From an uncultured Bacilli bacterium (GTDB lineage: Bacteria; Bacillota_I; Bacilli_A; RF39; UBA660): 64,000 nucleotides of DNA. Where the stretch lies: contig CANQIL010000003.1 of assembly GCA_947624045.1 (NCBI GenBank), positions 1-64,000 on the forward strand. The letters run 5' to 3'. A program made the position numbers and the translations under genes. Shown in pieces: positions 81 to 9,185 of the stretch. Each line of letters opens with the position of its first letter. Positions within the stretch are counted from its first letter, which is position 1. A model generated the notes under the pieces. The model had not been told where the DNA came from. It saw nothing but the letters and a program-made list of their open reading frames with translations, and searched no databases.

Positions 81-111
81 TTGACAGACAAGCTCGGGGG
101 GGGGGTATGAT
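81..111 (+). promoter_or_regulatory. Promoter with TTGACA (81-86) and TATGAT (106-111) separated by a spacer containing G10 (96-105)
   Basis: Direct reading; homopolymeric G10 tract in an AT-rich region, upstream of the 145..2166 ORF. Confidence 0.65.
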
Positions 112-144: not shown

Positions 145-2166
145 GTGATGGTTATGAATAGTAGGAAACAAAAATATATGATAATTGGAGCTTTATGCTT
201 AGTAGTAATTGGCTTATCAATTGGCTATGCAGTTTTATCTGCTAATTTAAAAATAGGTGGAACTGCTACTGTTCAACAAGAGAAGTGGAGTGTTATTTTT
301 GTAAGTGAAAATACTACTACTTCTAAAACTGGTAAAGCAACATGTAAAATTGGTAAAGTAACGGGAACATCCGTTACAGGCTTAAGTGCTTCTTTTAAAG
401 TACCAGGAGATTCTTGTACTTTTACTATTCCTGTTGAGAATGCTGGTACTATTGCGGCTAAGTTAACAAATGTTGATGGAATAAATACTCCTTTGTCTTA
501 TACAGTTAAATCTCCTGAAGATGAAGAAATCCTAAGAGGAAATGTTACTTATGAAGTATATTATGGTGATACGCAAATAAATACTGAAACTACTTTTGAA
601 AATATAGATATATTAGATTCTAAAGAAAAAACAACTGTAACTCTAAAAGTAGCTTTTAATAGTGAAGCTACTAGTATTCCTAATGATACTGTTACTATTA
701 AAGGACTAGACAGAACATTTATTTTTGAAAATATAGTAAGTGGAGATGGTTCATCAGGTACAGTTACACCTGTTGTAGAAACTAAACCAAATGCACCAGT
801 ACTAAATGGAGATATGATACCGGTATATTATGAAGCGACAAGTACTGAAGGGGGAGTATGGAAAAAGGCTGATTCAAGTAATAAAGATAATAGTTGGTAT
901 GACTATGACCATCAAAAATGGGCTAATGCTGTAACTGTTACTTCTGATGTTCGAAATAATTTAATCCAAGCTGAACCAGGAGCAGAAATTGATATTAAGG
1001 ACATAAATACAATGTGGGTCTGGATACCAAGATATTCATATACGATACAAGGAATTTATGGCAGAGGCGGAACAAGTGCTGAATTACCTGGTGCCATTGA
1101 TATAAAGTTCTTATCAAAGACGGACTCAGCTGAAAATGGAACAGCTAATTACACAGGGAATGAACAAAAAAATTGGAGAACACCGGATGCTTTCAATTTT
1201 GGTGGAACAACCCAGGATGGAATATGGGTAGGAAAGTTTGAAATAACTGGTTCATTAGAAAATAATTGTATAGATTCATCATGCAATGTAAGTAATGTAA
1301 CAATAAAACCAGGATTAACTTCACTTAGAAGTCAAAAAAATTCGAGTTTCTTCTATGCTGCAAGAAGTATGCAAAAAACGTATTATTCCACTTATGGATT
1401 TAATACGGATAAAGGCGACTTGCATATGATGAAAAATGATGAATGGGGAGCAGCAGCCTATCTATCACAAAGTAAATATGGAAAACACGGTAATCCTGAC
1501 TATTTTGGAAAATATGAAGAGGTATATCAAAACAAATCAAGTGAATATATAACAGGGAACAGTAACGGAACACCGAGCCAAAATGATTATGCATCTAAAC
1601 AATATGCCTATAATGATATGACTGATTTAGGAGATGGCAAGGGTCAAGCAGGACCTGGAGCTTCTACAACAGGAAATATTTACGGAATATATGATATGAG
1701 TGGTTGTAGTTGGGAAAGTGTTATGGGAGTATTAGCCTACTATCAAGATGATTCACCAATGAGTGGAAATTCTACAATATTGAATTCAGGCTTTACAGGA
1801 AAAGTATTAGAAAATGAAGATTATATTGACTTTATAAATGATCCATCAATTTCTTTCCCAAATTCAAAATATTACAATTTATATAAAGTTGCGACGACAA
1901 AAGAGGGAATGCCTCTAAAGTCTGACTTAAAAAATTCAGAAAAAGCTTGTAATGGTGAAGTATGTTATGGACAAGCACTATCAGAAACAGCAGGTTGGTA
2001 TGGTGATTATGCGGGATTTGTATATCCGAAAGATACTTGGTCATCGCGTGGTGGTAGTTATAGTAAACTCATTATTGCAGGTGTGTTCTCTTCTCACACT
2101 AATAGCGGTGATTCTACTGGTATTGATAGTAGTACAAGTACTCGTTTCGTTTTAACACCTCAATAG
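145..2166 (+). CDS. Surface protein: TasA/camelysin-like N-terminal domain plus FGE-sulfatase/C-type-lectin-like C-terminal domain
   Basis: N-term GYAVLSANLKIGGTATVQQEKWSV matches the three proteins at 38.8-41 kb; C-term has MWVWIPRYSY, GIYDMSGCSWE, SRGGSYS, AGVF, TRFVLTPQ. Start could be 148 or 154. Confidence 0.75.
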   Translation: MMVMNSRKQKYMIIGALCLVVIGLSIGYAVLSANLKIGGTATVQQEKWSVIFVSENTTTSKTGKATCKIGKVTGTSVTGLSASFKVPGDSCTFTIPVENAGTIAAKLTNVDGINTPLSYTVKSPEDEEILRGNVTYEVYYGDTQINTETTFENIDILDSKEKTTVTLKVAFNSEATSIPNDTVTIKGLDRTFIFENIVSGDGSSGTVTPVVETKPNAPVLNGDMIPVYYEATSTEGGVWKKADSSNKDNSWYDYDHQKWANAVTVTSDVRNNLIQAEPGAEIDIKDINTMWVWIPRYSYTIQGIYGRGGTSAELPGAIDIKFLSKTDSAENGTANYTGNEQKNWRTPDAFNFGGTTQDGIWVGKFEITGSLENNCIDSSCNVSNVTIKPGLTSLRSQKNSSFFYAARSMQKTYYSTYGFNTDKGDLHMMKNDEWGAAAYLSQSKYGKHGNPDYFGKYEEVYQNKSSEYITGNSNGTPSQNDYASKQYAYNDMTDLGDGKGQAGPGASTTGNIYGIYDMSGCSWESVMGVLAYYQDDSPMSGNSTILNSGFTGKVLENEDYIDFINDPSISFPNSKYYNLYKVATTKEGMPLKSDLKNSEKACNGEVCYGQALSETAGWYGDYAGFVYPKDTWSSRGGSYSKLIIAGVFSSHTNSGDSTGIDSSTSTRFVLTPQ

Positions 2167-4814: not shown

Positions 4815-6189
4815 TAAATATTTATTTACAAATTATGAAGAATACTTAAATAAAGAAGTTACTTTAGAAGGATGGATAAAGAATCATCGTAAACAAAAAG
4901 AGTTTGGTTTTATATCTTTTTCCGATGGAACTTACTTTACCCAAATACAAATAGTTTATGATAATAGCTTAAGTGATTTTTTAGATATTCAAAAATTTCA
5001 TATAGGTAGTGCTATTCAAGTAACAGGTATAGTTGTAAAATCTCCTAAAGAAGGACAATTATTTGAAATACAAGCTAAGAGTATATGCTTATTAGGAGAC
5101 TGTCTAGAAGATTATCCTATTCAACCTAAAAAGCATAGTAGAGAATTCTTAAGAGAACAAGCTTATCTTAGACCTAGAACTAATCTATTTCAAGCTGTTT
5201 TTCAAATTAGAAGTAAAGCTGCTTTTGCAATACACGAATATTTTCAAAAGAAAGATTTTGTATACTTCCATGCTCCTTTAATAACAGCAAGTGATTGTGA
5301 AGGAGCAGGTGAGATGTTCCATGTAACAACTTTTGATTTAGAAAATGTTCCTAAAAATAAAGATGGTAGTGTTGATTATACTAAAGACTTCTTTGGTAAA
5401 ATGGCTTCCTTAACAGTATCAGGACAACTACAAGCAGAAACATTTGCTTTAGCATATAAAAATGTTTATACTTTTGGACCTACTTTTAGAGCAGAAAATT
5501 CTAATACTAAAACCCATGCTTCAGAATTTTGGATGATAGAACCAGAAATGGCTTTTTGTGATTTAGAAAAAGATATGGATATAATGGAAGATATGCTTAA
5601 AAATGTTGTTAAGTATGTACTAGATAATTGTAAAAAAGAATTAGAATTCTTAGATAATTTTGTTGAAAAAGGCCTTATTGAAAAATTAGAGAATTTATTA
5701 AAGAAAAAAGCTATTCGTATTACTCATCATGAAGCTATTAAAGAATTAAAAGAAGCTAATAAGAATTTTGAATTTGCTCCTGAATATGGTGAAGACTTAG
5801 CTAGAGAACATGAAAAGTACTTAACAGAAGAAAAGTATCATGCTCCTGTCTTTGTATATGATTGGCCTAAAGATATAAAAGCTTTCTATATGAGACTTAA
5901 TGATGATAATAAAACAGTTGCGGCTGTAGATTTATTAGTACCAGGTTCAGGTGAATTAATGGGAGGTTCCCAAAGAGAAGAAAGATATGATGTTTTATTA
6001 AAAAGAATGAAAGAGCTAAATACTGGAGTAGATGAATTAGACTGGTATTTAAAATTAAGACAATATGGAGGATGTGTCCATTCCGGATTTGGTATGGGCT
6101 TTGAAAGATTAATTATGTATTTAACAGGAATAGAAAATATAAGAGATGTTATTCCTTATCCCAGAACTCCAGGTAATTGTGATTTTTAA
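4807..6189 (+). CDS. asnS: Asparaginyl-tRNA synthetase
   Basis: OB-fold GWIKNHRKQKEFGFISFSDG; class II motifs; GFGMGFERLIMYLTGIENIRDVIPYPRTPG. Confidence 0.93.
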   Translation: MTDKYLFTNYEEYLNKEVTLEGWIKNHRKQKEFGFISFSDGTYFTQIQIVYDNSLSDFLDIQKFHIGSAIQVTGIVVKSPKEGQLFEIQAKSICLLGDCLEDYPIQPKKHSREFLREQAYLRPRTNLFQAVFQIRSKAAFAIHEYFQKKDFVYFHAPLITASDCEGAGEMFHVTTFDLENVPKNKDGSVDYTKDFFGKMASLTVSGQLQAETFALAYKNVYTFGPTFRAENSNTKTHASEFWMIEPEMAFCDLEKDMDIMEDMLKNVVKYVLDNCKKELEFLDNFVEKGLIEKLENLLKKKAIRITHHEAIKELKEANKNFEFAPEYGEDLAREHEKYLTEEKYHAPVFVYDWPKDIKAFYMRLNDDNKTVAAVDLLVPGSGELMGGSQREERYDVLLKRMKELNTGVDELDWYLKLRQYGGCVHSGFGMGFERLIMYLTGIENIRDVIPYPRTPGNCDF

Positions 6190-6372: not shown

Positions 6373-6531
6373 ATGAAAGATATAATATACATAAGAATAG
6401 ACAAAGAAATTAAACAGAAGTTAGATATGTTAGCCTTAAAAGATAATAGAAGTTTAAATAATTATATAGTAACGCTCTTAACAAAATTTGTGGAAACGCA
6501 AGATAAAGAAAAGGAAAAAGAAAAAAATTAG
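6373..6531 (+). CDS. Small ribbon-helix-helix (Arc/CopG-like) protein, 52 aa, not in the supplied ORF list
   Basis: Translated by hand: MKDIIYIRIDKEIKQKLDMLALKDNRSLNNYIVTLLTKFVETQDKEKEKEKN*; RHH-like pattern; directly upstream of 6552. Confidence 0.65.
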   Translation: MKDIIYIRIDKEIKQKLDMLALKDNRSLNNYIVTLLTKFVETQDKEKEKEKN

Positions 6532-6551: not shown

Positions 6552-9185
6552 ATGAAAAAATTTAACAAATATATCCTAGCATTAATAGTAATAACGGTAG
6601 TAGTAATGACTATAGGTTATTCTGCTTTAAATAGTGAATTAAATATTACGGGAGATGTTAATTATCGACCAGAAAAAGATGTTAGAATTACTAGTTTTAC
6701 AACTAGTGAAAAACCTAGTGAAATGACAGTTGAGTATGCAGATTTTTCTAAACATGAAATTAAGCTTGGTTATACTACAACTGGAGAATGTAGTATAACT
6801 TATACAGTTAAAGTAGAAAACTTTTCAGCTGTAAATATGGGTATTTTAAGTATAAGTGGATTAGATGGAAATATAGAAGTACAAAAAGATATTATTGGTA
6901 AAAAATTAGTAGGTCCTGCTAGTAGTAATACTTTTACTATTACGTTTAAACCTACAACGGCAGAAATAAAAAAGACATATTTATTAACTTTTAATTTTAA
7001 ACAAGTATTTACTGTTACTTATAATGGTTTTAGTAATATTGATGATTATAAAAAAGAAATATTCATGGGAGAAGAATATTCACAAAATTTTGGTAGTAGT
7101 GCTCCTAAAAATATAGAAGTAACAATGAATGGAGAAATACTAAATACTTATAGTTATACTAGTGGTATTTTAACAATACCTAATGTATCAGGAAATTTAG
7201 TAATTAATGGAAATAATGCTCCATCATTTAAAGATAGTTGTGAAAATCATCCGAATGCTCCAGTTTTAAATGGAGATATGATTCCAGTTGTTTATGATGA
7301 AGAAAATCAAACTTGGGTGAAGCAAGATTTGTCTAAAAGCTATGATTATTGCAATCAAGTATGGGCCAATGCTGTAACAGTGAAAAATACAGTTAAAGAC
7401 TTATCAGGAAATAACAATGATGGATTAATTCGTGGTAATGCTATTATTGGCAATGGAGAAGCTACTTTAGATGGAGTAGATGATTATATAAATTGCGGAT
7501 TATATCGATATGATTTTAAAAGTGAAATATCATATGTAGTAAAGATTAGAAATGAAAGTGATACTAAAGGATTACTTATTGGTAACTGGGATGCTGGCGG
7601 TGGTGGTCTTAATATTTATGCACATGATAAAATATTTTTTGAATTATATGTAAATGATGGTTATAAGTACGTATATGGAGTGTTAAAAAGTAACGATTAT
7701 AATACAATAGTGGCAACATATGATGGGTCAGATATGAAATTATATATAAATGGTGAATTAGCAGGTTCTACTCCTGTAGTTGGTAGTATAAAGTTATCTA
7801 CTGCTTCTATGTCTTTAGGGGCTAATCTTACAGAAATGGATATATTAGATTCTAGTACAACGGCTAGAGTCAATATAAATGATGTTTTAGTGTTTAATAA
7901 AGCTTTAAGTGATGACGAAATAAAGGCACATTATAGTAATGAAGTTAGCTTGGGACAAACGCAACCATTACTTTATTATAATTTTGAAGATGCTAGTAGA
8001 GAATATTATAAGAAAGCTAATAATGGTACTTCAATTAGTATGGATGATATTAATACAATGTGGGTATGGATACCAAGATATTCATATACAATTCAAGGAC
8101 CTTATGGTCGAGGTGGAGCAAGTACAGCATTACCTGGTGCAATCGATATAAAGTTTTTATCTGAAACTGACCCAATTGAAAGTGGAAAAGCCAATTACAT
8201 AGGAAATGAAGAAAGCGAATGGAAGACACCAGATGCCTTTAACTTTGGAAGGACTACGCAAGCAGGAATATGGGTCGGAAAATTTGAAACAGCAGGAGAG
8301 TTAGCAAGTGCTTGTACAAGTGAAAGTTGTACTGTAAACAAATTATCTATAAAGCCAGATATGTCGTCTTTAAGAAGTCAAAAAGTAAGTAGTTTCTTCT
8401 ATGCCGCAAGAAGTATGCAAAATGATACGGCAACTTTTGGATTTAGTGATAGTGGAGACTTGCATATGATGAAGAATGATGAGTGGGGAGCAGTAGCTTA
8501 TCTTTCCCAAAGTAAATATGGAAAATATGGAAATACTGATTATACTGGACCTAATAAGGAAATTTATCAAAATAAATCAGATAAATATATAACAGGTTCA
8601 AGCAATGGAACACCAAGTCAAAATGATACAAAAAATCCGCAATATGCTTATAATAATATGACGGAATTAGGAGATGGCAAAGGACAAGCTGGACCTGGAG
8701 CTTCAACTACTGGAAATATTTACGGAATATACGATATGAGTGGAGGAACATGGGAATATGTAATGGGAGTACTTGCTTACAATGAAGATGATACACCAAT
8801 GAGTGGAAAATCAACTACATCTAATTCTGGCTTTAATGGAAAAGTATATGAATCTGGTGCTTATGATGATTTTATAAACTATTCATTTCCAGATAATAAA
8901 TATTTCAATTTATATAAAGTTGGAACAAAAGTTGGTGAAATGCCATCAAGCTCAACTTTGACAAATTCACAAAAAGCCTGTGATGGGGGAATATGTTATG
9001 GACAAGCCTTATCAGAAACTACTAATTGGTATGGAGATGGGAGCGGATTCGTATACCGCGAGCTCCCGTGGCCCGTACGCGGCGGTTACTTTAGTTATAC
9101 CACTGTTGCAGGAGTGTTCGGCTCGAGCAGCTCTTCCGGCAACGCTCACAGCACCTACGGGTCCCGTTTCGTTTTCGCTCCTTGA
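6552..9185 (+). CDS. Surface protein: TasA-like/Ig-like N-term, LamG/concanavalin-like middle domain, FGE/C-type-lectin-like C-term
   Basis: LamG-like DLSGNNNDGLIRGNA..GDGVDDYINCG-type segment and IATYDGSDMKLYINGELAG; C-term paralogous to 145..2166; ends VRGGYF..AGVF..GSRFVFAP. Confidence 0.78.
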   Translation: MKKFNKYILALIVITVVVMTIGYSALNSELNITGDVNYRPEKDVRITSFTTSEKPSEMTVEYADFSKHEIKLGYTTTGECSITYTVKVENFSAVNMGILSISGLDGNIEVQKDIIGKKLVGPASSNTFTITFKPTTAEIKKTYLLTFNFKQVFTVTYNGFSNIDDYKKEIFMGEEYSQNFGSSAPKNIEVTMNGEILNTYSYTSGILTIPNVSGNLVINGNNAPSFKDSCENHPNAPVLNGDMIPVVYDEENQTWVKQDLSKSYDYCNQVWANAVTVKNTVKDLSGNNNDGLIRGNAIIGNGEATLDGVDDYINCGLYRYDFKSEISYVVKIRNESDTKGLLIGNWDAGGGGLNIYAHDKIFFELYVNDGYKYVYGVLKSNDYNTIVATYDGSDMKLYINGELAGSTPVVGSIKLSTASMSLGANLTEMDILDSSTTARVNINDVLVFNKALSDDEIKAHYSNEVSLGQTQPLLYYNFEDASREYYKKANNGTSISMDDINTMWVWIPRYSYTIQGPYGRGGASTALPGAIDIKFLSETDPIESGKANYIGNEESEWKTPDAFNFGRTTQAGIWVGKFETAGELASACTSESCTVNKLSIKPDMSSLRSQKVSSFFYAARSMQNDTATFGFSDSGDLHMMKNDEWGAVAYLSQSKYGKYGNTDYTGPNKEIYQNKSDKYITGSSNGTPSQNDTKNPQYAYNNMTELGDGKGQAGPGASTTGNIYGIYDMSGGTWEYVMGVLAYNEDDTPMSGKSTTSNSGFNGKVYESGAYDDFINYSFPDNKYFNLYKVGTKVGEMPSSSTLTNSQKACDGGICYGQALSETTNWYGDGSGFVYRELPWPVRGGYFSYTTVAGVFGSSSSSGNAHSTYGSRFVFAP
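9039..9182 (+). other. Candidate DGR variable region at the 3' end of the 6552..9185 gene
   Basis: Hand count 86/144 G+C (~60%) and about 22 A, with an abrupt boundary; run of codons ending C/T with varied first two bases (tac cgc .. ctc .. tac ttt agt tat .. ggc .. agc agc tct tcc .. cac agc acc tac). Confidence 0.65.

Follow-up and report, generated by a model that had tools for sequence, protein, structure and literature searches.

A probable remote target of a chromosomal DGR, and its gene family, in an uncultured Bacilli genome

What wrote the last codons of the gene at 6552..9185? In the window (the whole stretch of 64,000 nucleotides analysed here, 27.4% G+C), positions 9039-9182 reach 59.7% G+C with 21 A in 144 nt, against 30.9% G+C in the remainder of the gene, and no 144-nt stretch elsewhere in the window rises above about 45% G+C. 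A sequence-only reading had described this tail as about 60% G+C and A-poor, built of NNC/NNT codons with the first two bases scattered, and had proposed a variable region (VR) served in trans by a diversity-generating retroelement (DGR), none being present in the window. The composition is as described, and a codon check confirms the C or T at third bases. The VR itself is real, yet shorter than the 9039-9182 proposed: it covers 9057-9181, and the match between template and target ends upstream of 9057. The features discussed below are as follows.

6552..9185, + strand: putative DGR target gene, 877 aa (open reading frame), whose C-terminal FGE/C-type-lectin-like domain ends in the VR
8058..9182, + strand: FGE/CLec-like domain as modelled (AF2 pLDDT 75.5, pTM 0.84)
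9057..9181, + strand: VR, 125 nt, aligned without gaps to the template TR-A (genome G000, contig C29, 8611-8735, minus strand)
9159..9181, + strand: 3' end of the VR, candidate IMH-like homing-initiation end, GGGTCCCGTTTCGTTTTCGCTCC (from the alignment)
6373..6531, + strand: small RHH-like ORF, 52 aa, between asnS and the target (from reading frames and flank comparison)
145..2166, + strand: target paralogue, 68% identical to the target in the C-terminal domain, whose VR-like tail has diverged and is richer in AT
81..111, + strand: promoter-like element of that paralogue (TTGACA, 9 nt, a G10 tract at 96-105, TATGAT)

The variable region and its template

The genome (G000; 1.65 Mb in 83 contigs) was searched with window positions 9000-9185. 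Contigs C29, C41 and C60 carry close copies, and C29 also has a shorter match, which is the template. This template, TR-A (RENPWSERGGNYSNTTNAGVFNSNNANGNANSNNGSRFVFA), reads mostly AAC or AAT where codons change, in line with the earlier claim that AAC/AAY template codons become NNY. Compared with TR-A, the window VR is changed at 17 of 34 template adenines and at 3 of the 91 remaining positions (Fisher p = 4.1e-9), and at none of the 20 mismatched sites does the window copy carry A. Changes are likewise enriched at template adenines in the cis VR on C29 (p = 2.0e-10) and in the copies on C41 (p = 2.4e-12) and C60 (p = 2.2e-7), each with its own set of A-site changes. From no TR-A codon can mutation of A reach a stop codon, and the ceiling on diversity is about 2.7e18 peptides. 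TR-A and the C29 and C41 VRs carry exactly the 3' end seen in the window VR (9159..9181), a candidate IMH by analogy with BPP-1. The C41 and C60 VRs also share a non-A difference, T to C at template position 36; given that their base there is the one found in TR-B, a second template of this genome, and in the template of the sister genome G003, we infer that an older TR-A allele wrote both copies.

On C29 the genes run in the order target (667 aa), TR-A, a protein with MutS domain I (146 aa), Avd (127 aa) and RT (359 aa). The RT appears to be of DGR type. It matches PF00078 and phrog_1423 reverse transcriptase (E 8.5e-102), carries the motifs IGNYTSQ (IGxxxSQ) and YMDD, and has as its best PDB match 8ub7 (E 1.3e-43), which we take to be the BPP-1 DGR RT complex; five relatives were found in a contig search, all from uncultured Bacilli MAGs. 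Avd is recognised by three libraries: bAvd PF22296 (E 3.2e-17), NF033474 DivGenRetAVD (E 1.8e-21, just under that model's cut-off) and phrog_3206, "Avd protein of DGR". The 146-aa protein matches PF01624 (MutS domain I, E 2e-10), the domain carried by the known DGR accessory MSL (PMC10053308), and fits an MSL-like role. The neighbours downstream look by eye like housekeeping genes, encoding ribosomal protein S16, a KH-domain protein and uppS-, cdsA- and rseP-like products, so the cassette is chromosomal and lies outside any phage. Thus, the second copy differing at A positions for which the sequence-only reading had proposed a search was found, with differences almost only at template adenines, and the DGR RT it had hoped to locate elsewhere in the genome adjoins that copy together with Avd. 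Its view that the window holds no retroelement extends to the whole of contig C3, on which the window lies and where no RT was found; the trans arrangement it had envisaged agrees with a template on another contig. The window VR and TR-A would be at least about 17.7 kb apart in contig coordinates even were C3 and C29 adjacent. Given that the assembly consists of 83 contigs, at 94% completeness and 5.3% estimated contamination, it is sequence relatedness that ties C3 to C29.

The target gene and its family

The product of 6552..9185 has a hydrophobic signal or anchor N-terminus and a LamG domain at residues 330-458 (Pfam Laminin_G_3, E 4.7e-14), and its match to FGE-sulfatase (E 0.0026) falls below the curated cut-off. 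For the modelled C-terminal domain, the top PDB match in Foldseek was 5vf4, TaqVP, a DGR variable protein of Thermus aquaticus (E 1e-6, prob 1.00), followed by weaker matches to FGE-type proteins and Mtd. As the TM-score against TaqVP is just 0.40, the comparison supports the fold class and not its details. A C-type-lectin/FGE-like target with the VR at its 3' end had been anticipated, and the model does lie nearest TaqVP, with the VR ending the gene. The protein would be a surface-anchored lectin-like binder. The small ORF in front of it resembles, by eye, a ribbon-helix-helix regulator and recurs at the same asnS site in G001 and G004, so that in three species it is followed by three different family members. 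We considered it as a family-wide regulator and rejected the idea, for it is confined to the asnS locus and absent before other paralogues. The interval between asnS and PP2C, where the window target lies, contains a different family member in G001 and G004 and no family gene in G002, G003 and G005.

The C-terminal domain of the window target has 69 matches in the genome, among them fragments at contig ends and TR-A itself. Family genes of more than 150 aa number 60 and sum to 122 kb, or 7.4% of the 1.65-Mb assembly. Their tails could be aligned without gaps in 33 cases, of which six with a recognisable template were set aside and 27 analysed. Where TR-A and TR-B both have an AAY codon, the amino-acid entropy of the tails is 3.12 bits, versus 1.20 at A-free codons, and base entropy at positions 1/2/3 is 1.84/1.61/1.22 at the former and 0.88/0.54/1.37 at the latter. 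This combination of variable first and second positions with a constrained third base reads as the trace of A-to-N rewriting of AAY codons, unlike neutral drift. Synonymous choices ending in C or T make up 84% at AAY tail codons versus 41% in gene bodies (p 2.7e-18); yet A-free tail codons reach 73%, from which the AAY codons differ weakly (p 0.025), so that third-base bias alone was dropped as family-wide proof of DGR action and we relied on codon-position entropy. We infer that DGRs once wrote the 27 diverged members, and that a tail no longer being rewritten drifts towards AT. The family proteins are probably surface-exposed.

At two loci (L039 and L041), DGR-type targets combine an FGE-like tail with an N-terminus resembling that of type IV prepilins (GFTLIELLAVIVILAIIALIAVPI). 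At the end of contig C5 (L134:7961-8122, minus strand) lies tail sequence resembling that of the family gene at C36:155-862; it is probably either a truncated family gene or an overlap in the assembly.

Sister species have their own cassettes, in which template and VR differ almost only at template A; in that of G006 the MSL-like protein and Avd are apparently fused (237 aa; L161, reverse-strand ORF 5420-6133, from the locus end). Among 58 genomes of the bacterial family, target-family genes are more numerous where there is a strong RT match, with a median of 11 versus 0 (Mann-Whitney p 6e-5, or 2e-4 without G000; phylogeny uncorrected in both).

Further DGR cassettes and poly-G promoters

A second cassette, on C1, comprises a target, TR-B, Avd and RT. 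VRs of TR-B occur in cis on C1, at C1:49 and on C21, and C9 has a decayed one. Sequence found 3' of the C1 cis VR recurs in the C1:49 and C21 targets, at C1:49 extending into a broken TR-B copy, so one route to remote targets is the copying of cassette ends. A broken second TR-B copy (L016:7007-7142, minus strand) retains template adenines in its 5' half, is VR-like in its 3' half and has no RT near it. The third cassette lies on C22; its target, TR and Avd are its own, and its RT is interrupted by stops. The genome thus holds two RT-intact DGRs and one broken, and those on C1 and C22 serve the same protein family as TR-A. Another RT, on C62, was rejected as the DGR RT: it is split, group II-like and on a contig with an integrase-like gene. 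On C70 (L020:403-527) there is a GC-rich, VR-like tail that matches neither TR-A nor TR-B and whose template may lie on a missing contig.

The promoter-like element of the 145..2166 paralogue is widespread. A G9-G11 tract after a TTGAC box precedes 28 of the 57 family genes with enough upstream sequence, and the -10-like box that follows is nearly always TATGAT or TATGCT. Genome-wide, TTGAC-poly(G) occurs at 32 sites (a reversed-pattern control gave 0), all 32 of them upstream of a family match by position and strand. The spacer of sigma-70 promoters is usually 17 nt; here it is mostly 19 nt, an excess owing to which slippage of the tract should alter promoter strength. Tract lengths are 9-11 across the loci of G000 and 10-12 across the inspected loci of the sister G007. 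In the G000 assembly nearly all tracts are exactly G10, a uniformity that could come from smoothing in the consensus or from a length fixed by function. These patterns suggest phase-variable expression of the family genes. The window target has no poly-G element, the RHH-like ORF standing upstream instead. In sister species the same element precedes other surface-type genes (L181-L183 in G007, L184 in G003 and L187 in G006), and some of the genes and families that carry it occur where DGR-type targets are few; from its presence before other surface-type genes we take it to be a general surface-gene switch and not a DGR component.

Competing explanations and known systems

We are highly confident that window positions 9057-9181 are a true VR, belonging to a remote target of a chromosomal DGR. 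If established DGR biochemistry holds here, TR-A would be transcribed and then reverse-transcribed by RT with Avd, with misincorporation at adenines; the identical 3' end would guide homing of the cDNA, which would take the place of the window VR. Rewriting of this kind would alter many residues in the C-terminal tail of the C-type-lectin-like domain, presumably on its ligand face.

Whether such rewriting continues is a matter within this reading. The VR may have been written by TR-A or an older allele and then left alone: it bears three non-A substitutions and has no stable hairpin downstream, while the C29 and C41 VRs each have one, and many paralogues are clearly decayed. The substitutions and the missing hairpin are reasons to think that the window VR may not have been rewritten very recently. 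A rate of 3/125 (2.4%) is nevertheless inside the 1.5-2.6% reported as the average of non-A differences in TR-VR pairs (PMC6642488), the whole 3' end still equals TR-A, and G+C remains at 59.7% in a window of 27%, so that an end to rewriting seems to us rather doubtful. A different origin, gene conversion or duplication of the cis target in place of retrohoming, draws on the C1:49 and C21 targets, whose downstream sequence indicates that target ends do get copied. For the window tail we consider it very improbable. The window and C29 VRs differ at 19 sites, 16 of them template-A sites; at the 11 adenines changed in both, 5 agree and 6 disagree, close to the one third that chance would give and as separate rewriting predicts, so simple copying of the cis target does not account for the tail. 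The two VRs differ largely independently from TR-A at its adenines, the sequence 3' of them is unrelated, and copying would still require later A-specific change. As for an origin without any DGR, by ordinary diversifying selection or through a GC-rich segment gained horizontally, the G+C contrast alone would be compatible with either; the template, RT, Avd and A-restricted differences leave this next to no probability, and the template match rules out a horizontally acquired GC-rich insert.

Beyond the remote-target reading of this VR, the target would be one of about 60 dispersed paralogues, all present or former DGR targets, in which members no longer rewritten drift AT-rich and the family supplies a repertoire of antigens or ligand binders; a -35/poly-G/-10 promoter, which slippage could switch, stands before about half of the members. 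We tentatively put forward, as a possibility somewhat short of probable, a two-layer antigen variation: some 60 surface-protein genes have their tails rewritten in trans by a few DGRs and are turned on and off through poly-G tracts, the rarely rewritten members acting as an archive of past variants. The genome shows that a family taking up about 7% of its small total can be linked to a few DGRs, and that the DGR signature stays legible in decayed targets. If the poly-G promoters do switch, the same genes would be subject to both hypermutation and phase variation, a combination of which our literature search found no description. The largest metagenome survey of DGRs states that remote targets escape its detection (PMC8144416), so genomes whose targets are mostly remote are undercounted.

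Remote targets of the FGE type are already known (PMC4891356; PMC10907252) and the core finding fits them; what looks new is how large the fossil-bearing family is and that it overlaps with poly-G promoters. In Treponema denticola (TvpA; PMC4891356) the DGR is also chromosomal, one TR serves FGE/CLec targets carrying VRs scattered over the genome, and targets are left over where the core DGR was lost. That species, however, has 2 to 7 targets per isolate, dispersed FGE-type lipoproteins, and an HRDC accessory gene, whereas G000 combines an MSL-like protein with Avd, about 60 family genes, two RT-intact DGRs plus a broken one, and poly-G promoters. Thiohalocapsa PB-PSB1 (PMC10907252) similarly has several DGRs per genome, some targets explained in trans, and FGE/CLec domains; its targets are putative conflict-system sensors and population diversification has been shown there, whereas those of G000, a small-genome Bacilli relative, are putatively diversified proteins of secreted or surface type. 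With the phage BPP-1 DGR (Mtd, bRT, Avd) our system shares the RT-Avd-TR-VR logic, adenine-specific change and a CLec target, but it lies in the chromosome among housekeeping genes, and has remote targets as well as an MSL-like accessory. The vlhA genes of Mycoplasma gallisepticum (PMC6258824) are also a large surface-protein family with a promoter repeat tract thought to control expression. There, the repeats are GAA and DGRs are no part of the system as described; in G000, by contrast, poly-G occupies the -35/-10 spacer and the gene tails appear to be DGR-written.
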